IMG/VR virus record: IMGVR_UViG_3300042691_035418
Location: 1 to 22,885 of that record
DNA: 22,885 bases
Direction: 5' to 3' (one strand)
Source: a virus
The position numbers and the translations under genes are program-made. Positions 66 through 14,030 of this stretch are shown piece after piece (positions within the stretch are counted from its first letter, which is position 1; each line of letters starts with the position of its first letter). The notes beneath the pieces were generated by a model, which saw only the letters and a program-made list of their open reading frames with translations, did no database searches and was not told the origin of the DNA.

Positions 66-298
66 GGGTTCCCTCCGATCCACTTGCGGAATGCTTCCTC
101 TGAACCGCGGGCCTCCGCAGGAACCTCGCGCTGGATCATCTCCAGCACTTCGACGAGGTTGGCGCGGAGTTCCTTGTCCAGAAACGACGGGTTGAGATCA
201 GCAATGATCATCCGTTGGAAGCCACTCCCGGGATGACAGCGGTTCTCCACATAGCGGTGGATGACTCCGCGAACGAAGTCGTGCAAGTCTTTGTCCAT
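62..298 (-). CDS. Unknown 78-residue protein
   Basis: A small, mostly helical, charged protein with no cysteine pairs, signal peptide or membrane segment. I recognise no family. Its start follows AAAGGT, a moderate ribosome binding site. It has its own promoter (-35 at 379-384, -10 at 356-361) embedded in the last codons of the upstream gene, and a GC-rich hairpin at the predicted mRNA 5' end. The next gene downstream starts by GTGA overlap, so the two form a short operon. Confidence 0.75.
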   Translation of the reverse strand: MDKDLHDFVRGVIHRYVENRCHPGSGFQRMIIADLNPSFLDKELRANLVEVLEMIQREVPAEARGSEEAFRKWIGGNP

Positions 299-321
299 TC
301 AAATCTACCTTTCGATGTTCA

Positions 322-347
322 CCGGAGTGGACCTTGGCCCACCCCGG
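322..347 (-). repeat. 5' leader hairpin, divergent member of the cassette family
   Basis: Two 9-nt arms (CCGGAGTGG and CCACCCCGG) pair with one G-U and enclose an 8-nt loop. The hairpin starts about 2-3 nt after the predicted transcription start of the promoter at 356-384. This matches the arrangement seen at the other promoter-hairpin units, although the sequence differs. Confidence 0.55.
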
Positions 348-355
348 CATTGGTA

Positions 356-384
356 ATATTATCAGCCTTCGGATTGGCTGTCAA
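356..384 (-). promoter_or_regulatory. Promoter TTGACA-17-TAATAT inside the 3' end of the upstream gene
   Basis: On the minus strand the -35 is a perfect TTGACA followed by GCCAA, a 17-nt spacer and TAATAT. The -35 encodes part of the final codons (LDSQSEG) of the 362-1099 gene, whose stop lies next to the -10. It drives the 62-298 gene. Confidence 0.75.
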
Positions 385-2023: not shown

Positions 2024-2393
2024 GATGGTCCGCCAAGAAGTCAGCCATCATCCACCCGTCAGGGTGATTGTCACCCATGTTGACCCGGACGAACGTGGGG
2101 GCCTTGCCAACCGCAGGGTGGACTTCGACCCGCCACCATCCGCCGCTCTTGGACGAGTATTCGTAGGTCCTGTTTCCGTCCAGCGGGTCGTCCACCGGGA
2201 CGGTCTCCAGTGCTATCCGTTTCGCCGCCGCCATGATGTTGCGTTGGGACAACGTCATGCCATTGCCCCTCCTGCGGTCCCAAACGCAGTCAGTCTTGGT
2301 GCCGGGGCCAACAGCCCATAGGCGGAACGGGCCGAATCGAATTGATTCCTCCACCTCCTGCACCTCCTGCGCCCACTGACTACTCTTCGACAT
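2007..2393 (-). CDS. Unknown 128-residue protein
   Basis: Starts MSKSSQWAQEVQEVEESIRF. The ATG at 2393 has GGAGG eight bases upstream, inside the preceding small membrane-protein gene; the longer reading frame up to 2492 only shadows that gene. The C-terminal half (YEYSSKSGGWWRVEV, then NHPDGWMMADFL) looks like a beta-rich small domain. No family recognised. The end overlaps the next gene by 17 nt. Confidence 0.75.
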   Translation of the reverse strand: MSKSSQWAQEVQEVEESIRFGPFRLWAVGPGTKTDCVWDRRRGNGMTLSQRNIMAAAKRIALETVPVDDPLDGNRTYEYSSKSGGWWRVEVHPAVGKAPTFVRVNMGDNHPDGWMMADFLADHHGNPL

Positions 2394-2508
2394 TGTGCGC
2401 CTCCACTTTGTCGAACGTCGTCGTGCATAGGTCCACAAAGGCGCACAACCCCGTCCCGATAAGGACGCCGCCAACGGCAACGCCCAACACAATCCACACG
2501 TTCGTCAT
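2380..2508 (-). CDS. Small single-span membrane protein, 42 residues
   Basis: This short gene encodes a peptide starting MTNVWIVLGVAVGGVLIG. Residues 4-25 form one clear hydrophobic membrane segment, followed by a charged, acidic tail (FDKVEAHNVEE). A strong ribosome binding site (GGGGGAG) lies five bases before the ATG. Its last 14 nt overlap the start of the downstream gene and contain that gene's GGAGG site. The function is unknown; small holin-like or membrane-modulating roles are possible but unsupported. Confidence 0.7.
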   Translation of the reverse strand: MTNVWIVLGVAVGGVLIGTGLCAFVDLCTTTFDKVEAHNVEE

Positions 2509-2524
2509 TTTTCTCCCCCAAGTT

Positions 2525-2552
2525 AAAAGCACGGGACGTTGCCACCCCGTGC
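2525..2552 (-). terminator. Probable intrinsic terminator after the 2574-3143 gene
   Basis: On the minus strand a perfect 7-bp stem (GCACGGG/CCCGTGC) with a 10-nt loop is followed by TTTT. It is the only hairpin in the left arm with a U-tract. It lies 22 nt after the TGA of the upstream gene and just before the ribosome binding site of the small membrane-protein gene, so it could be a partial terminator inside the operon. Confidence 0.55.
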
Positions 2553-2573
2553 CGGTTGTCGAATCGCGCCCCG

Positions 2574-3143
2574 TCAGACCGGGGGCTTGTTTGCGTCCTC
2601 AATCTCCTCTAGGGCCTGCTCCAGCCGCTCGAAGTCAGCGGAAACGGACCCGTCGTCCTTGGTCTGGACCGCCCCGATTTCAAACAGCAGGTGGCTTGCC
2701 ACGTCAGCGACAACGTCAATCAGGAACGTGTCAGGATTGAGCGCAATCCCGAATTCGTCACCGGTCCCGTACCGCTTGATCAGGTCCGCGAAGTCGGTGA
2801 TGATCTGCCCCAAGTCACCCGGGTCGTACTCACTAGCCACCATTGCGGCTGTTGAGGCAAGCCGGTGGTCAGGGCGGGCGGACCGCATGACCTGCCAAAG
2901 ATACTGCACCCCTAGCGGGTCGAAGTCCCATTGGGATTCGTGCGTACCGGGCGGTGCAGGTGCCACCTCCACCGTCTGCACGTCATTCTGGGTGAAATCG
3001 CGATCTGCGGTGGACGCCACCCGTTCGCGCAATTCTTCCCGTGCGTCCTCTTCTGTCTTTGCCCATGACCTCCACGTTTTGGTCAGGGTGTAGGTGCGGG
3101 TGACAGTGCCAACCCACGTTTTTCGATTCGCGTTGTCAGGCAT
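2574..3143 (-). CDS. Unknown 189-residue protein
   Basis: N-terminal residues 8-35 are beta-like and basic (TWVGTVTRTYTLTKTWRSWA). A middle proline-rich linker (VAPAPPGTHESQWDFDPLG) leads to a helical C-terminal half. No family recognised. A hairpin cassette lies directly upstream, with an AAGAGA ribosome binding site. No clear promoter lies between it and the upstream gene, so readthrough from the 3723-3751 promoter is likely. Confidence 0.75.
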   Translation of the reverse strand: MPDNANRKTWVGTVTRTYTLTKTWRSWAKTEEDAREELRERVASTADRDFTQNDVQTVEVAPAPPGTHESQWDFDPLGVQYLWQVMRSARPDHRLASTAAMVASEYDPGDLGQIITDFADLIKRYGTGDEFGIALNPDTFLIDVVADVASHLLFEIGAVQTKDDGSVSADFERLEQALEEIEDANKPPV

Positions 3144-3168
3144 TATGGTTCTCTTCTTTCAGGACGGT

Positions 3169-3186
3169 GCCCCGGTTGCCCGGGGC
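3169..3186 (-). repeat. Leader hairpin cassette, copy 1
   Basis: Perfect 7-bp stem GCCCCGG/CCGGGGC with a GCAA tetraloop (GNRA type) on the minus strand. It is flanked by the shared ATCGTCACTGCC before and CACCGTCC after, then AAGAAGAGA and the start codon. No U-tract. Confidence 0.8.
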
Positions 3187-3209
3187 GGCAGTGACGATGC
3201 TGTTGGCGA

Positions 3210-3665
3210 TTAGAAGTCCACGGTCCCCTTCAGGGAATTGAGGAACGCACGGCTAACACGGACGCTTTCCGCCAAGTGGGTGATCTCGTCGAACGTGCGG
3301 TCTGCAAGGTGGTCCGACCAGATGCTGTCCCCCCGATTCACGCAGGCTTCGACTAACTCGAGTCTGCACCCCAAGCCCGTTGGGCTTGATGCCCCGCTGA
3401 CCACATAGCGGAAGCAGTACCCGGAGGTGGACGGGTCTGATAGCAATTCCACCGCCGCGTTGTACTTTGTCCGCACCGTTTCAAACGATTGCAAAACGTC
3501 AGGGAGTGTCTCCGGGCTGGAGGTGATTTTGTAGAGGCCCTCGCGGACAGCGAAAACCGCTTGGCGCATAGCCGTGAGTTCGTCTGCCACGGCCTTGAGG
3601 AGGGCTTTTGCCTCGTCGTTCAGGACGTAGGTGATATCGTTCAGACCAATTTTGACTTCAACCAT
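3210..3665 (-). CDS. Unknown 151-residue helical protein
   Basis: Starts MVEVKIGLNDITYVLND and continues as long amphipathic helices (DEAKALLKAVADELTAM). No motif recognised. It has a full expression unit of its own: promoter at 3723-3751, hairpin at 3691-3708 and an AAAGAGA ribosome binding site. Confidence 0.75.
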   Translation of the reverse strand: MVEVKIGLNDITYVLNDEAKALLKAVADELTAMRQAVFAVREGLYKITSSPETLPDVLQSFETVRTKYNAAVELLSDPSTSGYCFRYVVSGASSPTGLGCRLELVEACVNRGDSIWSDHLADRTFDEITHLAESVRVSRAFLNSLKGTVDF

Positions 3666-3690
3666 CGTGGTTTCTCTTTCTTAGGACGGT

Positions 3691-3708
3691 GCCCCGGTTG
3701 CCCGGGGC
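3691..3708 (-). repeat. Leader hairpin cassette, copy 2
   Basis: Identical stem and GCAA loop to copy 1. It starts about 8 nt after the predicted transcription start of the promoter at 3723-3751, so it would be the first structure in the mRNA. Confidence 0.8.
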
Positions 3709-3722
3709 GGCAGTGACGATTG

Positions 3723-3751
3723 ACAGTACAACCTTTCGGCTTGGGTGTCAA
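3723..3751 (-). promoter_or_regulatory. Promoter TTGACA-17-TACTGT overlapping a stop codon
   Basis: The minus strand reads TTTGACACCCAAG, a 17-nt spacer, then TACTGT. The TGA within the -35 box is the stop codon of the 3748-4002 gene. It drives the 3210-3665 gene. Confidence 0.65.
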
Positions 3752-4002
3752 ATGTACGGGAAGCCATTGAACACGTCTATGGCGTCGTACGCCCACTTGC
3801 AGGACGCCTCGTTCCGGGCGTCGTACCGCTTATCTTGGTACGCCAATTGGGCCTCGTCCAAGATTTGGATGAGGTTGCGCAGGACGTTCTGCTGTTCGGT
3901 CCGGTGCAGGGTGCGGAACGCCTCGCGGACATCCGCGTTCTCATTCTGCCGCCAATTGTGGCGGAGGAGTTCGATGCACTGGGCGGCCTTCTGTTTTTCC
4001 AT
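3748..4002 (-). CDS. Unknown 84-residue helical protein
   Basis: Starts MEKQKAAQCIELLRHNWRQN. It is predicted to be almost entirely helical and charged, ending WAYDAIDVFNGFPYI. No family recognised. The stop codon is part of the next promoter's -35. It is preceded by its own promoter (4060-4088) and hairpin (4028-4045), then GAAAGAGA before the ATG. Confidence 0.75.
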   Translation of the reverse strand: MEKQKAAQCIELLRHNWRQNENADVREAFRTLHRTEQQNVLRNLIQILDEAQLAYQDKRYDARNEASCKWAYDAIDVFNGFPYI

Positions 4003-4027
4003 CGTTGTTTCTCTTTCTTGGGACGGT

Positions 4028-4045
4028 GCCCCGGTTGCCCGGGGC
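4028..4045 (-). repeat. Leader hairpin cassette, copy 3
   Basis: Stem GCCCCGG/CCGGGGC with a GCAA loop, starting about 8 nt downstream of the predicted transcription start. The flanks match copies 1 and 2. Confidence 0.8.
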
Positions 4046-4059
4046 GGGAGTGACGATGC

Positions 4060-4088
4060 AGTGTACGGCGCGAATCCTTGGCTGTCAA
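4060..4088 (-). promoter_or_regulatory. Promoter TTGACA-17-TACACT overlapping a stop codon
   Basis: The minus strand reads TTTGACAGCCAAG, a 17-nt spacer, then TACACT. The TGA is the stop of the 4085-4507 gene. It drives the 3748-4002 gene. Confidence 0.75.
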
Positions 4089-4507
4089 ATGCCCCGGGAT
4101 TCGCATCGTGGGCAGAGTGCCGTGCGGGGGTCTAATTCGGATTGGCACAAAGGGCACGGCCCGAAATCTACGCCGTCGAAATGCCGCTTGCGTTGGTCCG
4201 CCCGGATCATCAGTTTGCGGACGACGGTCAGTGCGTCCGGGGTCCAGTACACCGACCCGTCCGGGTTCTCGCCGGTATTGTACGCAATCGTGGCGGCGTC
4301 TTGGGAAATGGTCTTGACCCATTCGCGGACGTTGCCGATCCGGTCATGCCGGGATACCGGCAGTGCGACAACGGTGCCGTCACACGGGGCCTCGTCTTTG
4401 GACTCCACCCGCTTGAGGTGGGCGGAGCCGCGCCGCCAATCCAAGTACAACACGGGAGCGATGCGGCCCCCAAGGCACCGCGGGTCATGGGTAAAACGGA
4501 GTTTCAT
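4085..4507 (-). CDS. Unknown 140-residue protein with C-terminal zinc ribbon
   Basis: Starts MKLRFTHDPRCLGGRIAPVL. The last 25 residues contain CPLC and, eleven residues later, CPRC, a classic treble-clef/zinc-ribbon spacing that implies nucleic-acid or protein binding. The N-terminal part resembles a small beta-rich domain (VLYLDWRRGSAHLKRV). I chose the ATG at 4507 because it follows AAAGGA at proper spacing and lies just after a cassette hairpin; longer frames run through that hairpin. Its stop codon is part of the next promoter. No family name can be given. Confidence 0.78.
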   Translation of the reverse strand: MKLRFTHDPRCLGGRIAPVLYLDWRRGSAHLKRVESKDEAPCDGTVVALPVSRHDRIGNVREWVKTISQDAATIAYNTGENPDGSVYWTPDALTVVRKLMIRADQRKRHFDGVDFGPCPLCQSELDPRTALCPRCESRGI

Positions 4508-4535
4508 GGCAATCCTTTCGGGAACTGGTATCAGT

Positions 4536-4563
4536 GCCGGGAGCAGCATTCGCCACCCCCGGC
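4536..4563 (-). repeat. Leader hairpin cassette, copy 4, extended form
   Basis: An outer 6-bp stem (GCCGGG/CCCGGC) continues into an inner 6-bp stem with several G-U pairs and a GAAT loop. The copy at 6196-6223 changes one of these G-U pairs to C-G, a compensatory change supporting RNA structure. Confidence 0.7.
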
Positions 4564-4569
4564 GGAGGG

Positions 4570-4791
4570 TCAGAGTTGGACGGGCTTGATGCCCCGGACG
4601 CGGGTGGCGGACAGAAGGCGGACCTGCAACGGGCCCAGCCCAAACCGTTGCTTGACCCCGGCGAGACCAGAGGTGGCCGCGAGGTCGTTGCGTTCGTCCG
4701 GAGTCACGGTGGGGTGGGCTTCCACCGGGACCACCTCGCGGATGATTTCCGCGCCAACTTTGACGCGGACGTTGTGATAGGTCAGGACCAT
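4570..4791 (-). CDS. Unknown 73-residue protein
   Basis: Starts MVLTYHNVRVKVGAEIIREV. Probably a compact alpha/beta protein, ending RVRGIKPVQL. No family recognised. AAGGAG lies eight bases upstream of the ATG, one of the better ribosome binding sites here. Promoter 4851-4879 and hairpin 4817-4836 precede it. Confidence 0.72.
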   Translation of the reverse strand: MVLTYHNVRVKVGAEIIREVVPVEAHPTVTPDERNDLAATSGLAGVKQRFGLGPLQVRLLSATRVRGIKPVQL

Positions 4792-4816
4792 TGTGTTTCT
4801 CCTTCTTGAGGACGGT

Positions 4817-4836
4817 GCCCCGGGTTGCCCCGGGGC
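4817..4836 (-). repeat. Leader hairpin cassette, copy 5
   Basis: Perfect 8-bp stem GCCCCGGG/CCCGGGGC with a GCAA loop. Compared with copies 1-3 the stem is one pair longer, with both arms changed together. It starts about 8 nt after the predicted transcription start. Confidence 0.8.
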
Positions 4837-4850
4837 GGGAGTGACGATTC

Positions 4851-4879
4851 GTTATACCGCCTTGACGCTTGGCTGTCAA
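4851..4879 (-). promoter_or_regulatory. Promoter TTGACA-17-TATAAC overlapping a stop codon
   Basis: The minus strand reads TTTGACAGCCAAG, a 17-nt spacer, then TATAAC, among the closest to consensus in the left arm. The TGA in the -35 ends the ArdC-like gene. It drives the 4570-4791 gene. Confidence 0.8.
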
Positions 4880-5835
4880 ACGTCCTGTTCAAGGTCAGGG
4901 GCGGCCCCTGCGGGCAGGATCAGGTCCACCGCCTTCTGGGCTTCACGGGCGGCCCGCTGGAACACCTTGGGGTCCTCCTTCAGCCGCCGCCCCCACCCGG
5001 CGAGGTACGCGGCGGTCTGCTGGTCCGCCCGGACGTCGGACAGTCCCAACTCCGCAAGCACGGTGGCGGCGGTCAGTTCCGCCACCAATTCCTCCTCCGC
5101 GTAGTTCGCCGAGCCGAAGCCCACCGACTCCCCTGTGACTCCGGGACGCTTGAGCAGGGTGGAGTGCCCGGTGGAGTGCCCACACTCATGAAACAGGGTG
5201 GCGTAGTACCCAACCCCGTCCGCGAACTGCCACCGCTCTGGCATGGTGATGCCGTGGGTGGGCGGCGAATAGTACGCGGCGTCACCCGGCTCGTGGCGCA
5301 GGGAAACCTTGCCCCGCTTGAGGTAGTCCGCCACAATCGCCTCTGCGGCGGGGTCCGGGTCCGGACCGGCGGCGCGGGGTGCCACAACCTCCGGTTCCGG
5401 TGCCCCTTCGATCTGCGCCCGGTGGAACACGGTGTTGTACGAAAAGATCGGCACGTCCACCATGACGCGGCTACCGTCCGCATTGAGCATCCCGGACCGG
5501 TCAGGGTACCGCTTGAGGGTGAACTTGACGATGCGGGTGCCCTTCTCGCGCTTGCGGACCTGACCACCAACGCCCTGCCAATTGGCGTAGGTGCCCCAAT
5601 CCATTCCACCGGACCACCCGTTCCGCATGGCGGTCAGGGATGTGATCCAGACGTTGGTTCCCCGGTACTTGTTGCCGGTGAACGGGTTGCCCGGGCGTCC
5701 GCCGGGAACGCCGGTCCAAGGCTTCGCCCACGGGGCGGCCTTGCCGTCCAGAAGGTCCTGCGCCAATTGGGCGACAAAATCGCCGATCACGTCCACCCGT
5801 TCGCGGGTGGGGGTTGCCGTCTTGTTCCAAGCCAT
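4876..5835 (-). CDS. ArdC-like antirestriction protein (ssDNA-binding domain plus metallopeptidase)
   Basis: A 319-residue protein with the ArdC architecture found on conjugative plasmids and phages. The N-terminal domain, residues 1-140, binds single-stranded DNA in known relatives; here it carries WAKPW, GNPFTGNKYRGTN and SYNTVFHRAQ. The C-terminal zincin-type domain has HECGH (216-220) as the HExxH metal site and, about 27-33 residues on, YAEEELVAEL supplying the third ligand. A proline- and alanine-rich linker (about 145-165) joins the two. The known role is protecting incoming DNA from host restriction. It has its own promoter (5886-5914), leader hairpin and a strong AGGAG site. The length is close to that of full ArdC, so it looks intact. 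Confidence 0.88.
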   Translation of the reverse strand: MAWNKTATPTRERVDVIGDFVAQLAQDLLDGKAAPWAKPWTGVPGGRPGNPFTGNKYRGTNVWITSLTAMRNGWSGGMDWGTYANWQGVGGQVRKREKGTRIVKFTLKRYPDRSGMLNADGSRVMVDVPIFSYNTVFHRAQIEGAPEPEVVAPRAAGPDPDPAAEAIVADYLKRGKVSLRHEPGDAAYYSPPTHGITMPERWQFADGVGYYATLFHECGHSTGHSTLLKRPGVTGESVGFGSANYAEEELVAELTAATVLAELGLSDVRADQQTAAYLAGWGRRLKEDPKVFQRAAREAQKAVDLILPAGAAPDLEQDV

Positions 5836-5858
5836 TGTTCTGTCTCCTGTTGGTCGGT

Positions 5859-5876
5859 GCCCCGGTTGCCCGGGGC
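5859..5876 (-). repeat. Leader hairpin cassette, copy 6
   Basis: Stem GCCCCGG/CCGGGGC with a GCAA loop, starting about 3 nt after the predicted transcription start of the ardC-like promoter. Confidence 0.8.
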
Positions 5877-5885
5877 GGTTGGTCT

Positions 5886-5914
5886 ATTCTACGCCGTCAC
5901 GGTTTGGCTGTCAA
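5886..5914 (-). promoter_or_regulatory. Promoter TTGACA-17-TAGAAT for the ArdC-like gene, overlapping a stop codon
   Basis: The minus strand reads ATTGACAGCCAA, a 17-nt spacer, then TAGAAT. The TGA of TTGACA is the stop codon of the 5911-6171 gene. Confidence 0.8.
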
Positions 5915-6171
5915 TCCTCTTGCCGTTCGAGGGCGCGTTCGAGGTACCCGGCAAGTTCCCGGGCGAACGTTGCGTCGTCCTCTTCGAGGAAGTCTAGGAC
6001 GTGGTAGGTCACGACGTGCGTGGCCTTTCCGCGCCCGGACCAACTGACGTCCGTCAGGTAGGCCGGTGGGACGGCGTCGAAGTTGGTGCCGTCATGCACG
6101 ACGGCAACGCCGCCGCGCCACGGGGTGTCCAGCCCCTCTTGTATCCGAATTTTCAGGTCAGCGATTGTCAT
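5911..6171 (-). CDS. Unknown 86-residue protein
   Basis: Starts MTIADLKIRIQEGLDTPWRG. The first half looks alpha/beta; the C-terminus is an acidic helix (DFLEEDDATFARELAGYLER). The ATG at 6171 follows AAGGAAAG and the extended hairpin; the longer frame to 6399 reads through that hairpin and the gene beyond. No family recognised. Confidence 0.75.
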   Translation of the reverse strand: MTIADLKIRIQEGLDTPWRGGVAVVHDGTNFDAVPPAYLTDVSWSGRGKATHVVTYHVLDFLEEDDATFARELAGYLERALERQED

Positions 6172-6195
6172 GGGTCTTTCCTTCGTTTGGTCGGT

Positions 6196-6223
6196 GCCGG
6201 GAGCAGCATTTGCCGCCCCCGGC
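6196..6223 (-). repeat. Leader hairpin cassette, copy 7, extended form
   Basis: Same two-tier stem as copy 4: outer GCCGGG/CCCGGC, inner GGCGGC/GCTGCT with an AAAT loop. Relative to copy 4, a U-G pair becomes C-G, preserving pairing. Confidence 0.72.
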
Positions 6224-6247
6224 GGGGGTGTCGAAATGGGGTGCGGG

Positions 6248-6634
6248 TCAGGCGTTGGGGTTGTCCTGCCCCGCCACAAACGCAAGGCGGTAGGCGTCCA
6301 ACGCGGCCTTCGCGTCAATAAGGTGTTGCGCCCTCCGGTGCAACACCTCCTTGGTTTTCGAGTGGTTGCCCTGCGCGGATTCGCAGAGGGTCTGGACAAT
6401 GCGCCAAGTGGGGATGAACCCCGGGCAGTCCCGAAGGGACTTGATATCCACGATGGTCAGCCGCGCAACGCGCCCGATCGCTTCGGCGGTAGCCGGTTCG
6501 CCGTTTTCCGAATTCCAAGCATTCGCCGTCCAATCGGCGAACGCATTGTCCAAATTGCGGCTGACTTCGGAAACGCGCTCCCAAACGGGGCGCGGGTCAA
6601 TCGCCTCGGCGGGGATGATTGAGGTGGTTTTCAC
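6248..6634 (-). CDS. Unknown 128-residue protein, GTG start
   Basis: Starts VKTTSIIPAEAIDPRPVWER with GTG at 6634, just after AGAAAGAGA and the cassette hairpin; the ATG upstream at 6760 would translate through the hairpin and is unlikely. The body is a helical, tryptophan-containing protein (NAFADWTANAWNSENG) with an alanine-rich C-terminal helix. No family recognised. Confidence 0.72.
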   Translation of the reverse strand: MKTTSIIPAEAIDPRPVWERVSEVSRNLDNAFADWTANAWNSENGEPATAEAIGRVARLTIVDIKSLRDCPGFIPTWRIVQTLCESAQGNHSKTKEVLHRRAQHLIDAKAALDAYRLAFVAGQDNPNA

Positions 6635-6659
6635 GGTTGTGTCTCTTTCTGGGGTCGGT

Positions 6660-6679
6660 GCCCCGGGTTGCCCCGGGGC
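6660..6679 (-). repeat. Leader hairpin cassette, copy 8
   Basis: 8-bp stem GCCCCGGG/CCCGGGGC with a GCAA loop, flanked by TCGACACTCCC before and CACCGACCCC after. Confidence 0.8.
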
Positions 6680-6702
6680 GGGAGTGTCGAATCGGGGGTG
6701 GA

Positions 6703-7083
6703 TCAGGTAGCGTCCACCAACGCCTTCCGCAACCGGTCCACCTCCAACAAGGCGGCGCAAATGGCGTCGTACCCTTCGTCGGTTGGGTCCGTTTCGTAAG
6801 CCGCCCGGGCGGCTTGGTACCGGCTGTAGGCGGCTTTGTACCCCATGGCGATCGCCCTGACCTCCTCGAATTCGCGCAGGGCGGCCCCGGCATAATCCCG
6901 GGCGGAAACCTTATCGCCGGTCTCGGCAGTCGTTACCGCCCGGTCCAGCCAACTAAGGGCGGCGGTGCGGTACGGGCTACTGGGCAGGACTACCACTTTG
7001 CCCTCCGCGAACACAAGGGACTCGCGGTCCGGGGTCAGGGCGGCGGCGCGGAGTGCGGAAAGTGCGGTGTCGAACGGTCCCAT
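6703..7083 (-). CDS. Unknown 126-residue alanine-rich helical protein
   Basis: Starts MGPFDTALSALRAAALTPDR. It is predicted to be nearly all helix, with regular alanine, tyrosine and charged residues (GYKAAYSRYQAARAAYE), possibly a helical bundle. No family recognised. Start chosen at 7083 after AGAAAGAGA; the longer frame runs through the hairpin. It has a full unit: promoter 7146-7174 and hairpin 7108-7127. Confidence 0.74.
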   Translation of the reverse strand: MGPFDTALSALRAAALTPDRESLVFAEGKVVVLPSSPYRTAALSWLDRAVTTAETGDKVSARDYAGAALREFEEVRAIAMGYKAAYSRYQAARAAYETDPTDEGYDAICAALLEVDRLRKALVDAT

Positions 7084-7107
7084 TGTCTGTCTCTTTCTGG
7101 GGTCGGT

Positions 7108-7127
7108 GCCCCCGGCGAACCGGGGGC
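7108..7127 (-). repeat. Leader hairpin cassette, copy 9, UUCG loop
   Basis: 8-bp stem GCCCCCGG/CCGGGGGC with a TTCG loop on the minus strand, another well-known stable tetraloop. Both stem and loop differ from the GCAA copies while the fold is conserved. Confidence 0.8.
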
Positions 7128-7145
7128 GGTAGCGGCGAATACACC

Positions 7146-7174
7146 AGTGTATCATGCCGGTGCTGGGCAGTCAA
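7146..7174 (-). promoter_or_regulatory. Promoter TTGACT-17-TACACT
   Basis: The minus strand reads GTTTGACTGCCCA, a 17-nt spacer, then TACACT. It begins 2 nt after the TAG of the 7177-8310 gene. It drives the 6703-7083 gene. Confidence 0.72.
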
Positions 7175-7176
7175 AC

Positions 7177-8310
7177 CTAAGCCACCATGGTGGGGCGGCT
7201 GAAAAATCCGAAGGCGGGGTCCTTCGGGGACCGGGTTACGGTGGCTTTGACCCGGACCCGGTCTTGGTGTTGCCACCGGGCGGCGGACGGGACGGTGCCC
7301 CAGACCCGGTAGCCGTCACACTCGAGGAGTGCCTTCAGGGTGGACCCGTATGGCGTTTCCACAACCTTGGTGGAAACCACGACGCCCTCGAGGGTCAGGC
7401 GGCCCTCGGGGCATTCGCCCTTGGGTTGGGTGTCCCGTTCCGCCGTCAGGAACGCCATGCGGACTTTGCCGCAGACAAGGGCGGCCTCCCGGCGGGAGAC
7501 AAGGGCGTCGCCCTCGAAGAACCTTGCGGTGTCTTCCGCCTTCCGGAGGAATTCCAGCACCCCCTCGGGGAGTGCCTTGCCGTTGGCGGCAAGGGCACCA
7601 ACCTCCTCCCATGCCTGACGCCATGTGGCTTCAAAATTTGGGTTGCCGTTGGGGTGGCTGGACGGCCTGTACGGGGAGGTTTCAAAGAGGTCCGCCAACG
7701 CGGCGAGGTAGTCCGCCAACCAAAGGTACCCGGCGTACGCCCGCCCGTCCGGGCCGCATTCGTCGTAGTCGGTGCGGACGAGGTGGTTTTCGACCACCGC
7801 GAACGCAGACAGGATCTTGAGGGCTGTTGCCGGTATGTACCGGCCTTCGCAGGTGCCGCCCACCTGCAACAGCCGCCCGGTGGCAGTTTCGCGGACCACG
7901 CTGGTCTGGGTGCGGCGGATGGCCTTGCCGCACTCCTCACAGGTTGCAACTTCCGCCGGTATGGCGGCCCGGACGGCGTCGCGGGCGGCGGCGTCCTCGC
8001 GGTGCTGGAGCCAATTCTCGGCGGTTGCGCCGCCAAGGTCTTCGCGGCGGAGTACCAGACTCCACCCCGGGGCGGCAAGTGCCGCGTCCGGGATTGTAAT
8101 GGTAACCGGCACGGCGTCCGCGCCCCACCGGGCAGTCTCCTGCCATTCGGTGTGCCCGTAGGCACCCTCAATCGATTCGTGGCGGCGGACCGTCAACCGG
8201 ACGGGCTGCCCCACTTCGACTGCCGCCCCGGGAATGGCGGCAATGGCGGACCGAATCGGGCGCAGGGCGGCGTTGACGGTGGCGGGGGTCAGGTTGTAGG
8301 TGCGTTGCAT
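7177..8310 (-). CDS. 377-residue protein with CxxC zinc-binding motif and OB-like C-terminus
   Basis: The largest protein of the left arm. An N-terminal alpha/beta region (1-115) is followed by CEEC at 124-127 and GGTC ending at residue 154, a zinc-ribbon-like arrangement with three visible cysteines. The C-terminal segment (LEGVVVSTKVVETPYGSTLK, then YRVWGTVP and RVRVKATVT) looks like an OB-fold, as in hypothetical proteins of phages and plasmids from GC-rich bacteria. A nucleic-acid-binding role is plausible, not shown. It has a hairpin cassette and AAAGAGA before the ATG but no obvious promoter of its own. Confidence 0.78.
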   Translation of the reverse strand: MQRTYNLTPATVNAALRPIRSAIAAIPGAAVEVGQPVRLTVRRHESIEGAYGHTEWQETARWGADAVPVTITIPDAALAAPGWSLVLRREDLGGATAENWLQHREDAAARDAVRAAIPAEVATCEECGKAIRRTQTSVVRETATGRLLQVGGTCEGRYIPATALKILSAFAVVENHLVRTDYDECGPDGRAYAGYLWLADYLAALADLFETSPYRPSSHPNGNPNFEATWRQAWEEVGALAANGKALPEGVLEFLRKAEDTARFFEGDALVSRREAALVCGKVRMAFLTAERDTQPKGECPEGRLTLEGVVVSTKVVETPYGSTLKALLECDGYRVWGTVPSAARWQHQDRVRVKATVTRSPKDPAFGFFSRPTMVA

Positions 8311-8333
8311 TGTCTGTCTCTTTCTTGGTCGGT

Positions 8334-8355
8334 GCCCCGGGGGTCAGCCCGGGGC
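8334..8355 (-). repeat. Leader hairpin cassette, copy 10
   Basis: 8-bp stem GCCCCGGG/CCCGGGGC with the six-base loop CTGACC on the minus strand, followed by CACCGACC and AGAAAGAGA. Confidence 0.75.
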
Positions 8356-8379
8356 GGGAGTGTCGGTCAGTGGCGCGGG

Positions 8380-8661
8380 TCAGAGTTTGACCGGGGCGTC
8401 AATTTCTCCGTAGTAGCGTGCCATCACAAGGTCCTGTTCCCAAAAGTATTCGTCCGTCTGTCCGGCAAGGTAACCGGCACGTTCCGCCCTGCTTAAGGCG
8501 GCGGCAACGGCGGGGCTTTTTCCGTAGACCCGCCACCGCCAAAAGCAGAACGCGTAGATAGAGTCAGCCGTCACATCGGTGCGGCGGGTCAGTGCGTCAT
8601 GCCGGGATGCGGCGTAGTGCAGGCTACAGGCGGCGCGGGTCAATTGTTGCCGAGCGGTCAT
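8380..8661 (-). CDS. Unknown 93-residue protein, member of a local paralogue family
   Basis: Starts MTARQQLTRAACSLHYAASR. The central block AFCFWRWRVYGKSPAVAAAL resembles LMFWREIGIYG in the 10028-10312 protein and RYRYWGLRWFGL in the 9175-9483 protein, each followed by an alanine-rich helix. The start at 8661 was chosen over the in-frame ATG at 8676 because GGGAG lies eight bases before it, while the earlier ATG abuts the hairpin. Promoter 8711-8739. Function unknown. Confidence 0.72.
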   Translation of the reverse strand: MTARQQLTRAACSLHYAASRHDALTRRTDVTADSIYAFCFWRWRVYGKSPAVAAALSRAERAGYLAGQTDEYFWEQDLVMARYYGEIDAPVKL

Positions 8662-8683
8662 TAGATTGTCTCCCATGGTCGGT

Positions 8684-8701
8684 GCCCCGGCGATTCGGGG
8701 C
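8684..8701 (-). repeat. Leader hairpin cassette, copy 11
   Basis: 6-bp stem GCCCCG/CGGGGC with loop AATCGC on the minus strand, about 3 nt after the predicted transcription start. It is the shortest stem of the set. Confidence 0.65.
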
Positions 8702-8710
8702 GGTTGGTCT

Positions 8711-8739
8711 ATTGTATACCACCCGGGCTTGACTGTCAA
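8711..8739 (-). promoter_or_regulatory. Promoter TTGACA-17-TACAAT with the -35 inside an inverted repeat
   Basis: The minus strand reads TTTGACAGTCAAG, a 17-nt spacer, then TACAAT. The -35 lies in the loop of a perfect 9-bp inverted repeat (8719-8727 and 8741-8749). It drives the 8380-8661 gene. Confidence 0.75.
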
Positions 8740-8749
8740 ACCCGGGTGG
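8719..8749. promoter_or_regulatory. Inverted repeat CCACCCGGG-N13-CCCGGGTGG around a -35 box
   Basis: The 9-nt arms are perfectly complementary and enclose the TTGACA box. It also lies 25 nt after the stop of the 8774-9103 gene, so it could act as an operator, or as an mRNA 3' hairpin for that gene without a U-tract. Sequence alone does not decide between these. Confidence 0.55.
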
Positions 8750-8773
8750 CAGGGAACTGGTATCCGGGGGGCG

Positions 8774-9103
8774 TCAGCCGCAGGCCCCGGGGATTCGGTA
8801 CGCAAATTCGAGAGCGTTGGCGGTGCAACGCCCAACCGACGCAAGGCATTCGTCCGCTAGCGGTGCAACGCCCCAGAAGGCGGCGGCCCCGGCGGCGTCA
8901 GTTTCCGCCGTCATTAGATTGTTCCGCAACCCCCGGGCGTCCGGGCCGGTCAGCCGTGCGGCGGCCCGGGATGCCTTGCGGATTGAGGATCGGAGTTTGC
9001 GGACGTTGCCGGGGGTCGGTTCGACTGTCACCCGCAGGTATGCGGATCGGGCGTCGTAGGCGGCGAGGAGGGCCTTGGCGGCGGGGGTCTTGAAAAGGTT
9101 CAC
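8774..9103 (-). CDS. Unknown 109-residue protein, GTG start
   Basis: Starts (GTG) NLFKTPAAKALLAAYDARSA. A basic, alanine-rich helical N-terminal two thirds (VRKLRSSIRKASRAAARL) is followed by a cysteine-containing tail. No family recognised. AGAAAGAGA precedes the GTG, with a hairpin cassette upstream and no promoter visible. Confidence 0.7.
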   Translation of the reverse strand: MNLFKTPAAKALLAAYDARSAYLRVTVEPTPGNVRKLRSSIRKASRAAARLTGPDARGLRNNLMTAETDAAGAAAFWGVAPLADECLASVGRCTANALEFAYRIPGACG

Positions 9104-9128
9104 GGTTCGTTCTCTTTCTGGGGTCGGT

Positions 9129-9151
9129 GCCCCCGGGGGTCAGCCGGGGGC
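9129..9151 (-). repeat. Leader hairpin cassette, copy 12
   Basis: 8-bp stem GCCCCCGG/CCGGGGGC with a 7-nt loop on the minus strand (CTGACCC), flanked by the usual CACCGACC. Confidence 0.72.
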
Positions 9152-9174
9152 AGGAGTTACGATAGGGTGCCGGG

Positions 9175-9483
9175 TCAGGCAACCGGGGCGGCTTTACCGG
9201 CGGCAAGTTCCGCCGCCTTAATCCGTGCGGGGCGGTCAGCCCAGTGCAGGGCGGTTGCACGGTATCCCGTCCATCCGTCCAACAAACCGGACTCGAATCG
9301 GGCGGCGTCTTTGCCTGCATAATAGGCGGCGGGGCCACCCGTCAGGCCGAACCAACGCAAGCCCCAATACCGGTACCGGCGGAACGCCGCCACCAATTCG
9401 GGTGATGGCCGCTCGGGGTGGTTGGCGGGGGCGAGTTCGACGAATGCGGCGGACGCCGCAACAAGGTTTTGAATTACGGTCAT
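9175..9483 (-). CDS. Unknown 102-residue protein, member of a local paralogue family
   Basis: Starts MTVIQNLVAASAAFVELAPA. The pattern AFVELAPA, PSPELVAAF, YWGLRWFGL and an alanine-rich helix can be aligned by eye with the 10028-10312 protein (DFLAVAPA, PDPAVVAAVF, FWREIGIYG). This suggests duplication within the phage. AGGAAGAGA precedes the ATG. Function unknown. Confidence 0.74.
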   Translation of the reverse strand: MTVIQNLVAASAAFVELAPANHPERPSPELVAAFRRYRYWGLRWFGLTGGPAAYYAGKDAARFESGLLDGWTGYRATALHWADRPARIKAAELAAGKAAPVA

Positions 9484-9508
9484 TCGATTGTTCTCTTCCT
9501 AGGTCAGT

Positions 9509-9528
9509 GCCCCGGGGTCAGCCGGGGC
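9509..9528 (-). repeat. Leader hairpin cassette, copy 13
   Basis: 7-bp stem GCCCCGG/CCGGGGC with loop CTGACC on the minus strand. Confidence 0.75.
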
Positions 9529-9551
9529 GGGGTTGGCGCGGTCAGCGGGAG

Positions 9552-9770
9552 TCAGCGACAAAGGTATGCGTCAGACTCCTCGGCGGTCAGGACAATGTCC
9601 GTCGCCACGTCAAGGTATGCATGGCCCCGGCGGGGGTTCCAACAGTACAAAAGCACCCGCCCGGACCGGGTTCGGAACGGGGTTTCGGTCCCGCCGCAGG
9701 CGGGGACCCAACGGTCAGCGTTGGCCGCAACCGCGGCGGCGAATTGTTCCGGGCCGGTCAGCGGGGTCAC
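9552..9770 (-). CDS. Unknown 72-residue protein, GTG start
   Basis: Starts (GTG) TPLTGPEQFAAAVAANADRW. The middle is beta-rich (RTRSGRVLLYCWNPRRGHAY) and the end acidic. The GTG overlaps the stop of the upstream membrane-protein gene (GTGA), so translation is coupled. No family recognised. Confidence 0.7.
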   Translation of the reverse strand: MTPLTGPEQFAAAVAANADRWVPACGGTETPFRTRSGRVLLYCWNPRRGHAYLDVATDIVLTAEESDAYLCR

Positions 9771-9961
9771 TTGCGGACCTCCCGGGATTGTGCCGCCAAC
9801 CGGTGCAATTCGGCGTCAGCGGATCCGAATATGTACACAATGCCGCAACCCACTATGGTTGCGGCGGCGAACACCGGGTCGGAGCCGGTGAACAAAAGGG
9901 CGGCGGCGGCGGCGGCGGCGACAGTGGCAAGGGCGAGTGCAAGGGTAGCGTAGCGGTTCAA
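9767..9961 (-). CDS. Small two-span membrane protein, 64 residues, TTG start
   Basis: Residues 4-26 (alanine-rich) and 29-46 (AAATIVGCGIVYIFG) form two hydrophobic segments separated by a short turn. The polar basic C-terminus (HRLAAQSREVRK) likely faces the cytoplasm. The start is TTG at 9961, eight bases after AAGGAGG, the best ribosome binding site in the left arm. A holin-like shape is possible, but no lysis gene is adjacent, so the function is left open. Confidence 0.7.
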   Translation of the reverse strand: MNRYATLALALATVAAAAAAALLFTGSDPVFAAATIVGCGIVYIFGSADAELHRLAAQSREVRK

Positions 9962-9985
9962 AGTGATACCTCCTTACGGGTCGTT

Positions 9986-10005
9986 GCCCCCCGTTGCCGG
10001 GGGGC
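9986..10005 (-). repeat. Leader hairpin cassette, copy 14
   Basis: 8-bp stem GCCCCCCG/CGGGGGGC with a GCAA loop. The stem sequence differs from the others with both arms changed together. Confidence 0.78.
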
Positions 10006-10027
10006 GGGTCAGCGTCAGTGTATGGGG

Positions 10028-10312
10028 TCAGGCGGCGTACTGCTTGGCCATATCCCGCAGGTACTGCCAAGCGTGTGGTTTGTCGGTATAGAACCCGGCA
10101 CCGATTCCCCGGGCGGCCCATGCGGCGTAGGATTCGGCTTGGTCCGTGGTGTTACCGTAGATACCGATCTCCCGCCAAAACATCAGGTGGAAGACTGCGG
10201 CTACAACCGCAGGGTCCGGGTTCGCAACCCGGGGGGCCCGGGCCGGTGCAACGGCGAGAAAGTCGGCGGCGGCGCGGCGCAGGATCGCGGCGGATTGTTC
10301 GTTACGGGTCAT
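10028..10312 (-). CDS. Unknown 94-residue protein, member of a local paralogue family
   Basis: Starts MTRNEQSAAILRRAAADFLA. It shares a layout with the 9175-9483 and 8380-8661 proteins: an alanine-rich first helix, then LMFWREIGIYG, then a helix (ESYAAWAARG). AAGGAG lies before the ATG. No promoter is visible directly upstream; it is probably read from the 11219-11247 promoter. Function unknown. Confidence 0.74.
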   Translation of the reverse strand: MTRNEQSAAILRRAAADFLAVAPARAPRVANPDPAVVAAVFHLMFWREIGIYGNTTDQAESYAAWAARGIGAGFYTDKPHAWQYLRDMAKQYAA

Positions 10313-10336
10313 TCGATTCTCTCCTTACGGGTCGGT

Positions 10337-10356
10337 GCCCCGGGGTCAGCCGGGGC
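10337..10356 (-). repeat. Leader hairpin cassette, copy 15
   Basis: 7-bp stem GCCCCGG/CCGGGGC with loop CTGACC on the minus strand, followed by CACCGACCCGTAAGGAG. Confidence 0.75.
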
Positions 10357-10379
10357 GGGTGCTACGGGTCGGTGCGGGG

Positions 10380-10730
10380 TCAACCCCAACGCAGGGCAGG
10401 ACAGTCCCGTTCGGCGTTGGCTTGGACCTCCTTGGCAAGGCGGCAGGCCAACTCCCCCTGTTGTGCCACCTGCCGGTGTGCTGTCTGCAACGCCCCGCCA
10501 AGGTTCACAATTCGGTGCGCTAGTCGGTACACTTCATGCACATCCGACCGTATCTCCTCCACGTCAGTCCCGGTGGCAACGGATTCGGCGGCGGCGTTGC
10601 GGGTTGCCAACATCCCGTCAACTAGCGCGGTATGCGCCGTCCGCAGGGCGATAATCGCCTTGAATGCGGCGTCAATTGCGGCGTCAGCAGTGGCGATTGT
10701 GTCAGCGTGGGGTACGGTCCAATCGGACAT
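10380..10730 (-). CDS. Unknown 116-residue helical protein
   Basis: Starts MSDWTVPHADTIATADAAID. Long alanine-rich helices with heptad-like spacing (IDAAFKAIIALRTAHTALV, then VHEVYRLAHRIVNLGGALQ) suggest a helical bundle or coiled coil. No family recognised. It has AAGGAG before the ATG and a hairpin cassette upstream. Confidence 0.75.
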   Translation of the reverse strand: MSDWTVPHADTIATADAAIDAAFKAIIALRTAHTALVDGMLATRNAAAESVATGTDVEEIRSDVHEVYRLAHRIVNLGGALQTAHRQVAQQGELACRLAKEVQANAERDCPALRWG

Positions 10731-10742
10731 TCGAGTCTCTCC

Positions 10743-10868
10743 TTACGGGTCGGTGCCCCGGCGGCCCGGGGCGGGATACAGTTTCGGCAGTGCCCTGCCA
10801 ATCATCAGCGGGGCGGCGTCAGCCCCGGACCGTATCAGCGCATTCACCGTATGCTCAATTATGGCCAT
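10743..10868 (-). CDS. Possible 41-residue peptide running into the hairpin cassette
   Basis: Starts MAIIEHTVNALIRSGADAAP. Unlike all neighbours, the frame reads through the cassette hairpin and stops inside the next gene's ribosome binding site. There is no convincing Shine-Dalgarno; an in-frame GTG at 10928 is an alternative start. It may not be real. Confidence 0.3.
   Translation of the reverse strand: MAIIEHTVNALIRSGADAAPLMIGRALPKLYPAPGRRGTDP
10755..10772 (-). repeat. Leader hairpin cassette, copy 16
   Basis: 7-bp stem GCCCCGG/CCGGGGC with loop GCCG on the minus strand, followed by CACCGACCCGTAAGGAG before the 10380-10730 gene. Confidence 0.75.
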
Positions 10869-11218
10869 CGCCCGACCGGCCCCCGGCGAATTCCCCGATC
10901 CTATCGGCGGCAGTACTACCTGCCGCACCCCGGATGTCGCCCGTACCAGTCAGTGCCACTCCCCCGCCGCTACCCGGGCCAATCACCATGGCCCCGGTTA
11001 ATCGCGATTATGCCTTTTCCCCCGGACAAGTCTACGGGGGGGCGGGTTATCAGTTGCGGTTGCGCCCCGGGTTCGCGCCCTGTCCCGGGTTAGGTTCCCC
11101 TACCAGCAATTGCAGGGGTTATCGGCTGACGCCGATTCGATTGTCCAATTTGCAGTGTGCCGGGGGGGCGCGTTGGCCCCGGGTCCCGTTGGTCCGCCCC
11201 GATTGGCGGCACGGACTG
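10774..11218 (-). other. GC-rich region without a convincing gene, possible long structured leader
   Basis: Downstream of the 11219-11247 promoter the minus strand has no reading frame with a good ribosome binding site. Only a 44-codon frame (10855-10989) and the 41-codon frame ending at 10743 are present. Several potential hairpins occur, for example CCCCCG/CGGGGG arms at 11020-11041 and CCCGGG pairs near 11068-11097. It may be an untranslated leader, a structured RNA or degraded genes. Confidence 0.45.
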
Positions 11219-11247
11219 ATTCAATCACGCCCGGACTTGGCTGTCCA
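11219..11247 (-). promoter_or_regulatory. Promoter TGGACA-17-TTGAAT, leftmost outward promoter of the control region
   Basis: The minus strand reads TGGACAGCCAAG, a 17-nt spacer, then TTGAAT. It shares the GCCAAG extension of the left-arm promoters but has one mismatch in the -35. It likely starts the transcript covering 10380-9552 and onwards. Confidence 0.6.
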
Positions 11248-11298
11248 GTACTGAATAAGTATCAGCAATGTGTTTTTTGCGGCAATAAGTGTCAATAA

Positions 11299-11311
11299 CT
11301 GCCATTGGCAG
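11299..11311. promoter_or_regulatory. Palindrome CTGCCA-T-TGGCAG
   Basis: Perfect 6-bp arms around one base. The arms contain the GCCA/TGGC motif that follows most left-arm -35 boxes. It lies beside a TTGACT sequence on the minus strand and next to the CRP-like site. Confidence 0.55.
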
Positions 11312-11317
11312 TCAAGT

Positions 11318-11333
11318 GTGATCTTTATCACAA
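11318..11333. promoter_or_regulatory. CRP-like binding site TGTGA-N6-TCACA
   Basis: The sequence TGTGATCTTTATCACA matches the CRP/FNR-family consensus palindrome at all ten conserved positions. It is centred about 52 bases before the predicted start of the rightward promoter at 11343-11371, a distance usable for activation or repression. Confidence 0.65.
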
Positions 11334-11342
11334 TGGATTTTC

Positions 11343-11371
11343 TTGACATTGGCAATCCAGTATGGTATTTT
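11343..11371 (+). promoter_or_regulatory. Rightward promoter TTGACA-17-TATTTT
   Basis: A perfect TTGACA is followed by TTGGCAA, a 17-nt spacer and TATTTT. No credible gene follows until 12033, so the product would be a long leader or a non-coding RNA crossing the 17-bp repeats. Confidence 0.6.
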
Positions 11372-11469
11372 CACGCGCCTGCCTGTTTTGGGGCTACTAA
11401 ATGAATCACGCGGGTGCGTGCGCGATACTGAAGGTATGGGCTGGTTCCGGAGGGGGGAGAGGGGGGAGG

Positions 11470-11486
11470 CACCCAGTAGAGGTGAC
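11470..11486 (+). repeat. 17-bp direct repeat, copy 1 (CACCCAGTAGAGGTGAC)
   Basis: Identical to copy 2 and two bases different from copies 3 and 4. Confidence 0.8.
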
Positions 11487-11527
11487 AGGCCGCTGGCAAA
11501 TCCAAAAAACAAATTTCCTCGGTTTGA

Positions 11528-11544
11528 CACCCAGTAGAGGTGAC
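11528..11544 (+). repeat. 17-bp direct repeat, copy 2
   Basis: CACCCAGTAGAGGTGAC, identical to copy 1 and in the same orientation, starting 58 bases after it. Confidence 0.8.
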
Positions 11545-11568
11545 CTGCCACATCGGGCTGACAGTTGT

Positions 11569-11583
11569 TGCCAATTGTTGGCA
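11569..11583. promoter_or_regulatory. Palindrome TGCCAA-TTG-TTGGCA
   Basis: Perfect 6-bp arms with a 3-base centre. It combines two GCCAA half-sites like those attached to the left-arm promoters, so it is a candidate high-affinity site for the same regulator. Confidence 0.55.
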
Positions 11584-11710
11584 GGTAATGACGTGAAAAT
11601 GGGGTGGATGAATACCCAACCCGCCCTTTTCGTCCGCAGGCCGGGGACCCCCTTTTGTTTGCCCGTATGTTTGCCCTAGCACCTAGGTAGGGTAAGGAAT
11701 CCAGCCCGGA

Positions 11711-11727
11711 CACCCAGCGGAGGTGAC
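11711..11727 (+). repeat. 17-bp direct repeat, copy 3 (CACCCAGCGGAGGTGAC)
   Basis: Same orientation; TA is replaced by CG in the centre relative to copies 1 and 2. Confidence 0.8.
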
Positions 11728-11753
11728 ACCCCACCATGGCAAGCCCCACCCGG

Positions 11754-11770
11754 CACCCAGCGGAGGTGAC
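11754..11770 (+). repeat. 17-bp direct repeat, copy 4
   Basis: Identical to copy 3, starting 43 bases after it. Degenerate relatives occur at 11680-11696 and 11931-11947. Confidence 0.8.
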
Positions 11771-11993
11771 CGTCCCCGATATCCATCGAGTCCATCCTCC
11801 TCTCTCTCTTTCTCCCGCCGTAGAAAACCGATAAAACAGTGCTGCCGGTTCCTCCTGCTAGGCTTTGAGAACTCTGCCCCGGGCGATGGCGCGTGACCGA
11901 AGGCAACGCTCTTTCAATGGAACCAACCCCCACCTAGTAGAGGAACACCAACTAAAAACTTTTTTCCTATATATAGAGAAGGGGCGAGAGTCG

Positions 11994-12031
11994 CAACATT
12001 GCCGGTAATCGTACTGCCAAGTACAATGTTG
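11994..12031 (+). promoter_or_regulatory. Leaderless-type promoter spanned by an inverted repeat
   Basis: TTGCCG (11999-12004), a 17-nt spacer and TACAAT (12022-12027) end only 5 nt before the ATG at 12033, and no Shine-Dalgarno is present. Perfect 8-bp arms CAACATTG (11994-12001) and CAATGTTG (12024-12031) flank the promoter and could be an operator. The spacer contains another TGCCAAG. Confidence 0.6.
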
Positions 12032-12032
12032 T

Positions 12033-13911: not shown

Positions 13912-13927
13912 GACTCGTATCTCCTCT

Positions 13928-13941
13928 TGGTAAAATTACCA
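13928..13941. promoter_or_regulatory. Operator-like palindrome TGGTAA-AA-TTACCA at the dut start
   Basis: Perfect 6-bp arms. The predicted transcription start of dut falls inside it, which is the position expected for a repressor site. Confidence 0.55.
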
Positions 13942-13945
13942 GTAA

Positions 13946-13974
13946 AGTGTATAATATATTTGGACTTGATGCAA
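13946..13974 (-). promoter_or_regulatory. Promoter TTGCAT-17-TACACT for the dut operon
   Basis: The minus strand reads TTGCAT, a 17-nt spacer, then TACACT, in an AT-rich gap. The -35 overlaps the U-tract of the upstream operon's terminator. Confidence 0.65.
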
Positions 13975-14002: not shown

Positions 14003-14030
14003 GATAAGGAGATCTTTGCCTAAATTCGCA

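Follow-up and report, generated by a model that had tools for sequence, protein, structure and literature searches.

We analysed a 22,885-base DNA fragment of an uncultured phage, the IMG/VR virus record IMGVR_UViG_3300042691_035418 (the whole of this stretch is called the window), and found 18 hairpin leaders in its left arm, all on the minus strand and each a short way upstream of a start codon. Judged from its sequence, this leader is an RNA element of the mRNA and not a terminator, and it is probably not a DNA operator. Its position, orientation, spacing, covariation of the arms, lack of a U-tract and recurrence with other letters in relatives were established by sequence comparison. Sixteen copies lie within positions 3169-10772, where a first-pass annotation had counted at least 16, and two diverged copies lie outside (320-349 and 2528-2553). 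They are listed by extent, with each gene named by the position of its start codon, the loop of each hairpin in brackets, and promoters, like the transcription starts discussed later, as predictions.

10728..10788, minus strand: leader of gene 10730, GCCCCGG[GCCG]CCGGGGC at 10755-10772; no gene called upstream
10310..10372, minus strand: leader of gene 10312, GCCCCGG[CTGACC]CCGGGGC at 10337-10356; no promoter
9959..10021, minus strand: leader of gene 9961 (TTG start), GCCCCCCG[GCAA]CGGGGGGC at 9986-10005; no promoter
9481..9544, minus strand: leader of gene 9483, GCCCCGG[CTGACC]CCGGGGC at 9509-9528; no promoter
9101..9167, minus strand: leader of gene 9103 (GTG start), GCCCCCGG..CCGGGGGC at 9129-9151; no promoter
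8659..8739, minus strand: leader of gene 8661, GCCCCG[AATCGC]CGGGGC at 8684-8701; promoter TTGACA-17-TACAAT (8739-8711)
8308..8371, minus strand: leader of gene 8310, GCCCCGGG[CTGACC]CCCGGGGC at 8334-8355; no promoter
7081..7174, minus strand: leader of gene 7083, GCCCCCGG[TTCG]CCGGGGGC at 7108-7127; promoter TTGACT-17-TACACT (7174-7146)
6632..6695, minus strand: leader of gene 6634 (GTG start), GCCCCGGG[GCAA]CCCGGGGC at 6660-6679; no promoter
6169..6239, minus strand: leader of gene 6171, variant stem, GCCGGGGGCGGC[AAAT]GCTGCTCCCGGC at 6196-6223; no promoter
5833..5914, minus strand: leader of ArdC-like gene 5835, GCCCCGG[GCAA]CCGGGGC at 5859-5876; promoter TTGACA-17-TAGAAT (5914-5886)
4789..4879, minus strand: leader of gene 4791, GCCCCGGG[GCAA]CCCGGGGC at 4817-4836; promoter TTGACA-17-TATAAC (4879-4851)
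4505..4579, minus strand: leader of gene 4507, variant stem, GCCGGGGGTGGC[GAAT]GCTGCTCCCGGC at 4536-4563; no promoter
4000..4088, minus strand: leader of gene 4002, GCCCCGG[GCAA]CCGGGGC at 4028-4045; promoter TTGACA-17-TACACT (4088-4060)
3663..3751, minus strand: leader of gene 3665, GCCCCGG[GCAA]CCGGGGC at 3691-3708; weaker promoter TTGACA-15-TGTACT (3751-3725)
3141..3202, minus strand: leader of gene 3143, GCCCCGG[GCAA]CCGGGGC at 3169-3186; no promoter
2506..2553, minus strand: diverged leader of gene 2508, GGCACGGGGTG[GCAA]CGTCCCGTGCT at 2528-2553; the sole copy with a T-rich tail
296..384, minus strand: diverged leader of gene 298, TGCCGGGGTGGGC[CAAG]GTCCACTCCGGTG at 320-349; promoter TTGACA..TAATAT (384-356)

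The left arm is transcribed leftward and holds 23 genes by our hand calls, with starts placed by hand and open frames verified. All 18 starts that are preceded by an intergenic gap carry a leader, and the five without one all overlap the upstream gene. Within the interval, 14 of the 16 stems are of the GCCCC type and two of the GCCGGG..CCCGGC type; the loops swap as the first-pass annotation had described, with GCAA in 7 of the 16 and TTCG, GCCG, CTGACC, AATCGC, AAAT or GAAT in the remainder. The 3' foot of the hairpin lies 23.9 +/- 1.9 nt from the start codon. On the other side, the hairpins stand 6-72 nt past upstream stops when all copies are considered, and 20-24 nt past them in the copies without a promoter, except at 4507 (6 nt). 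Of the flanking boxes that had been proposed as part of the design, a CACCGWCC-type 3' box is present in most copies, but only about half have a TCGTCACTCCC-type 5' box that can be recognised. The ribosome binding site (RBS) boxes are variable (AGAAAGAGA, AAGGAGA and AGGAAGAGA). The leaders may be interchangeable, as first suggested.

The pattern GCCCCN{3,14}GGGGCACCGWCC occurs 12 times in the window and never in 100 dinucleotide shuffles. By an automatic scan, a strong hairpin lies 17-30 nt upstream of 15 of the 23 left-arm starts, compared with 4.2% of positions (binomial P ~8e-16), and the combination of a strong hairpin with an RBS-bearing start 17-30 nt on was found 15 times on the minus strand of the left arm and nowhere else in the window. 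The density of such hairpin-start pairs is ~1.4 per kb here versus 0.09 per kb in other viral contigs (0.12 per kb in those with GC >0.58), a control density that is inflated because those contigs were chosen for hairpins. A covariance model built from the 16 copies recovered the same 16, all on the minus strand, which follows by construction and serves as a consistency check. Rfam gave no match above the curated threshold in the window or in two relatives (L086 and L087).

Changes in one arm of the stem are matched in the other. We aligned the 16 copies with MAFFT and named the stem ourselves, a procedure open to structural bias and applied to mutually related copies; two-sided changes appeared at 4 of 8 stem pairs and 93% of cells pair. 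The covariation score was reached by none of 500 shuffles of this alignment and the pair count by 6 of 500, and sliding the partner by one column lowered the pairing to ~60%. The GCAGGGTA lineage, described below, has two-sided changes at 6 of 10 pairs, again with no shuffle of 500 matching the score. The claims that both arms change together and that the fold is conserved above the sequence are borne out, the first by compensatory changes among the window copies and the second by covariation both there and in this related lineage. In their sequence context, the window hairpins are predicted to fold with a mean pair probability of 0.96 and at about -18 kcal/mol, and the start region is predicted to be more open than background (0.62 versus 0.39).

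Inverted repeats near promoters and starts could also be DNA operators to which a dimeric phage regulator binds, a reading proposed for the extended start-associated sequences (ESAS) of cluster K and for the repeats of clusters O and EG, and these published analogues were interpreted as DNA sites (PMC3203893, PMC7302621, PMC4351075). A fixed dimer site, however, would not tolerate co-changing arms and loops of 3 to 7 nt, and most of our copies have no promoter. Because the copies share a single orientation and a fixed distance from the start codon, vary in loop length and change in both arms of the pair, RNA is favoured over an operator, which we regard as a highly doubtful explanation.

A TTGACA-type promoter precedes seven of the 18 leaders and is weakest at 3665, and in four cases the stop codon of the upstream gene lies inside the -35 box. 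In the promoter-bearing copies the hairpin begins 6-18 nt past the -10 box, or ~1-11 nt from the predicted transcription start (assumed 7 nt after the -10 box). The proposal that the hairpin stands near the 5' end of the mRNA therefore holds, by prediction, where a promoter exists, but that is the minority: 11 copies lack a convincing promoter of their own and lie between cistrons (at 10730, no gene was called upstream). Four of the left-arm promoters (384-356, 4088-4060, 4879-4851 and 5914-5886) share bases beyond the hexamers (TTGACAGCCAAGCC), as do promoters in relative G001 (L086 at 1433, 3921, 5491 and 6186); the shared start of the spacer may be an operator.

U-poor terminators have been discussed for actinobacteria, and stable GC hairpins at such distances after upstream stops could be terminators of the preceding gene that act without a U-tract. 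Yet a GC hairpin followed by a U-tract, the criterion for an intrinsic terminator, was found only at 2528-2553, with its T-rich tail. The other 17 copies lack a U-tract, as had been noted, and terminator-like sites were not in excess over shuffles (15 versus 12.2 expected). Moreover, the hairpins sit between promoters and the genes that these promoters serve, and termination at them would leave ~11 genes without any other promoter. On the absence of a U-tract and the placement downstream of promoters, we dropped this reading as scarcely credible, in agreement with the first-pass annotation, which had not taken the hairpins for ordinary terminators.

The same design recurs with other letters in phages that share the terminase. 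A TerL search of IMG/VR returned 145 encoding stretches, of which 80 were kept. Searching IMG/VR for the exact pattern of this window's hairpin gave no match because the relatives carry other stems, among them GCCGGG.., GGCCGGG.. and GCAGGGTA... In G001, whose TerL is 87% identical, the TTGACAGCCAAGCC promoter and the architecture are as in the window and the stems are different; G002 has the stems GCCGGGGCG[CTCCCC]CGCCCCGGC and GGCCGGG; and GCAGGGTA..TACCCTGC with a GAAAGGT RBS is common to G011, G012, G014, L128, L167 and L184. The covariance-model search suggested at the outset, run with a model from the window copies (R2), matched leaders of L241, L087 and L086 with E-values of 2e-5 to 1e-4. 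A model from the GCAGGGTA lineage (R1) detected some dozen leaders in L167, on its coding strand, and reached the window's 298 leader at E 0.014; all of these E-values are rough. The median distance from foot to start was 18.5-24 nt in every lineage examined; the distance from stop to hairpin was variable. GNRA and UNCG loops were modestly enriched (14/62 versus 10/117, P 0.01). Two unrelated viral contigs (L255 and L259) carry a palindrome over a promoter (GCGGACAGAATGTCCGC), with a hairpin ~7 nt after the -10 box and then a GAAAGGA RBS. Many contigs of 4-6 kb (L119-L198) that matched the GCAGGGTA pattern have a single CAGGGTA..TACCCTG..GAAAGG hairpin of constant 39-nt length, probably a different, unrelated conserved element.

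Within one genome the stems and boxes are alike, and between genomes they differ, as would be expected if they co-evolved with a trans-acting factor. A phage or host RNA-binding protein might read the hairpin and its flanking boxes (CACCGACC) and control translation or decay of the left-arm genes as a regulon, and the fixed, strand-specific geometry would suit such a protein. Against this, loops (GCAA, TTCG, GCCG, CTGACC) and stems (GCCCC, GCCGGG) vary within a single genome, a variety that argues against sequence-specific recognition and would leave recognition of shape at best. Duplication of the cassette could also explain the likeness within genomes, and a Pfam scan of the left-arm proteins revealed no RNA-binding domain. 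We consider control by such a protein unlikely. Its broader form is a doubtful proposition: a phage-wide RNA regulon in which a lineage-specific hairpin precedes nearly every accessory gene, an RNA-binding factor co-evolves with it, gene sets are co-regulated and modules are swapped mainly among phages with the same hairpin.

The leaders also coincide with sites of gene exchange. Two related contigs, L167 and L128, to which the breakpoint test was applied, differ in gene modules that have been gained or lost, and 6 of their 12 homology breakpoints lie <=15 nt from a leader, compared with 15% of the region (P 0.005). This result supports the suggestion that leaders lie at joints of gene exchange and is consistent with cassette-mediated exchange; it is not proof, because breakpoints at any gene boundary would yield part of the signal. 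The leaders might even be mainly recombination joints, kept alike by duplication and homologous recombination and with little function as RNA. Gene insertions that bring their own repeat copy in cluster M phages (PMC7953290) point the same way. Recombination alone, however, does not predict two-sided stem changes, which keep pairing yet lower identity, nor does it need a strict distance to the start codon, and breakpoints fall at gene boundaries for other reasons too. We give this account only a small chance of being right.

The explanation we favour, tentatively and at a little less than an even chance, is that the hairpin seals off each initiation region on its 5' side and, together with the ribosome, shields the RNA, with a further role as a joint for gene exchange. 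Each copy is taken as an RNA hairpin that acts in cis, in the 5' or intercistronic leader of a single gene, and it belongs to a cassette that runs from the upstream stop through a short spacer, the stable GC hairpin and ~24 nt with the RBS to the start codon. Because the 3' foot, ~20-25 nt from the start, adjoins the edge of the footprint of the initiating ribosome, the two would leave almost no bare RNA open to RNases. The hairpin would be a roadblock that protects the end from entry of 5'-end-dependent RNase E or of the 5'-3' RNase J and, within polycistronic transcripts, as the upstream boundary of each cistron. The outcome would be an independent, durable translation unit for each small accessory gene and, as a by-product, repeated cassettes providing homology joints where gene modules come and go. 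Such a protecting or delimiting role would fit the position of the foot, the stability of the stem and, in copies with a promoter, the closeness to the predicted 5' end. Also in its favour are the presence of the hairpin at every gapped start and its absence from coupled ones, the compensatory changes, the architecture retained in relatives, the predicted folding, the enriched GNRA and UNCG loops, the breakpoints at leaders and the like foot-to-start geometry of Estes.

Several observations weigh against this explanation. Most copies are away from any predicted 5' end. Removing the hairpin in silico barely changed the openness of the start region from 0.609 to 0.603 (0.586 with its letters shuffled). 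In Mycobacterium smegmatis, mRNA half-life was uncorrelated with the structure of the 5' UTR (untranslated region), and a double stem-loop at one 5' end conferred no stability (PMC11728522). In favour of the explanation, 5' hairpins stabilise some bacterial mRNAs, and the ompA/papA-type stem-loops, shown to hinder decay that depends on the 5' end, resemble our promoter-bearing copies, by prediction, in standing at or near that end (PMC3997798). Those are single-gene leaders, unlike the repeated, per-gene and mostly intercistronic set found here. Two other candidates were considered: static opening or insulation of the RBS by the hairpin was set aside as weakly supported given the very small in-silico effect, and stems of 7-9 bp are short for an RNase III site.

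The window is strongly divided in composition, with 63.6% GC in the left arm (1-11000) and 51.1% in the right (11000-22885), where genes for thymidylate synthase, dUTPase, endolysin, single-stranded DNA-binding protein (SSB), TerL and portal are found. Most left-arm genes were without a family in the Pfam scan. Megablast of the window against 50,697 phage records gave no match, no close relative of the left arm was found, and a search with the left-arm protein encoded at 7177-8310 retrieved only three weak relatives. A TerL search of bacterial genomes aimed at assigning a host also gave no match, and the best matches of ArdC and ThyX are spread across many host groups; we therefore make no host call. 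The non-coding region between the arms (11468-11777) contains four direct copies of CACCCAGYRGAGGTGAC, which also occurs in several copies and both orientations in relative G001 (L086 5660-7258) and could be an origin or a regulator site. In addition, GGGGGAGGGTSTCATTTTTGATA is present in three near-tandem copies at 15260-15329, upstream of a plus-strand gene at 15391.

Similar elements are already known in a few other phages. The CR3/CR4 repeats of the cluster M mycobacteriophages Estes and Aziz have upstream stem-loops (PMC7953290). In Estes, which is cultured, small genes form a leftward block in which the stem-loops vary and the RBS box is invariant, and 9 of its 11 boxes have a short variable-arm hairpin ending 22-30 nt before the start. 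The window shares the leftward small genes, the intergenic gaps and the variable-arm stem-loop upstream of the start, but has no sequence likeness to these repeats: the CR3/CR4 box of Estes (ACACGGAGAAGGGA) is absent, and AGAAAGAGA or AAGGAG stands instead. In Estes the CACACGGAGAAGGGA box is invariant and another, larger stem-loop is often present further upstream, whereas each leader of the window contains a single GC-rich hairpin and the RBS is less constant.

In cluster K mycobacteriophages (PMC3203893) and cluster EF Microbacterium phages (PMC7302621), start-associated sequences (SAS) and ESAS occur in many copies upstream of small non-structural genes. They resemble the window's leaders in combining an RBS-proximal box with an inverted repeat and in a consensus that differs between subclusters. 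The 13-bp SAS consensus at the RBS was not found in the window, and departures from the ESAS give no support for RNA pairing according to its authors (PMC3203893), whereas here they do. In cluster EG Microbacterium phages, an inverted repeat of 18 bp precedes starts by 14-22 bp (PMC7302621), and cluster O mycobacteriophages have >30 inverted repeats per genome (PMC4351075). The letters of these EG and O repeats are constant between phages and the arms invariant, and the O repeats also lie inside genes. In the window, by contrast, constant arms and spacer were not found; the arms covary, loop lengths differ and placement is strictly linked to starts.

The promoter early stem-loops (PeSLs) of T4-type phages are composite terminator/promoter motifs. 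They comprise an early promoter and a stem-loop repeated between small variable genes and are proposed to shuffle modules (as cited in PMC4503421). The window's hairpin differs in lying downstream of the promoter, without a U-tract and at a fixed distance from the start. Promoter and stem-loop share a cassette in only 7 of 18 copies, and 17 of 18 stem-loops lack the U-tract of a terminator. A likeness lies in homology breakpoints at cassettes, as seen in the related contigs L167 and L128.

Repeats associated with start codons have long been described in actinophages, as have stem-loop cassettes in T4-type phages. Here several lineages whose letters are unrelated show the same geometry, a foot ~20-25 nt before the start, and arm covariation was tested in two of them. 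This recurring geometry with arm covariation therefore favours a role as RNA, in translation initiation or decay, over one as a DNA site. As Estes carries a comparable array, the function of such leaders could be tested directly in M. smegmatis.

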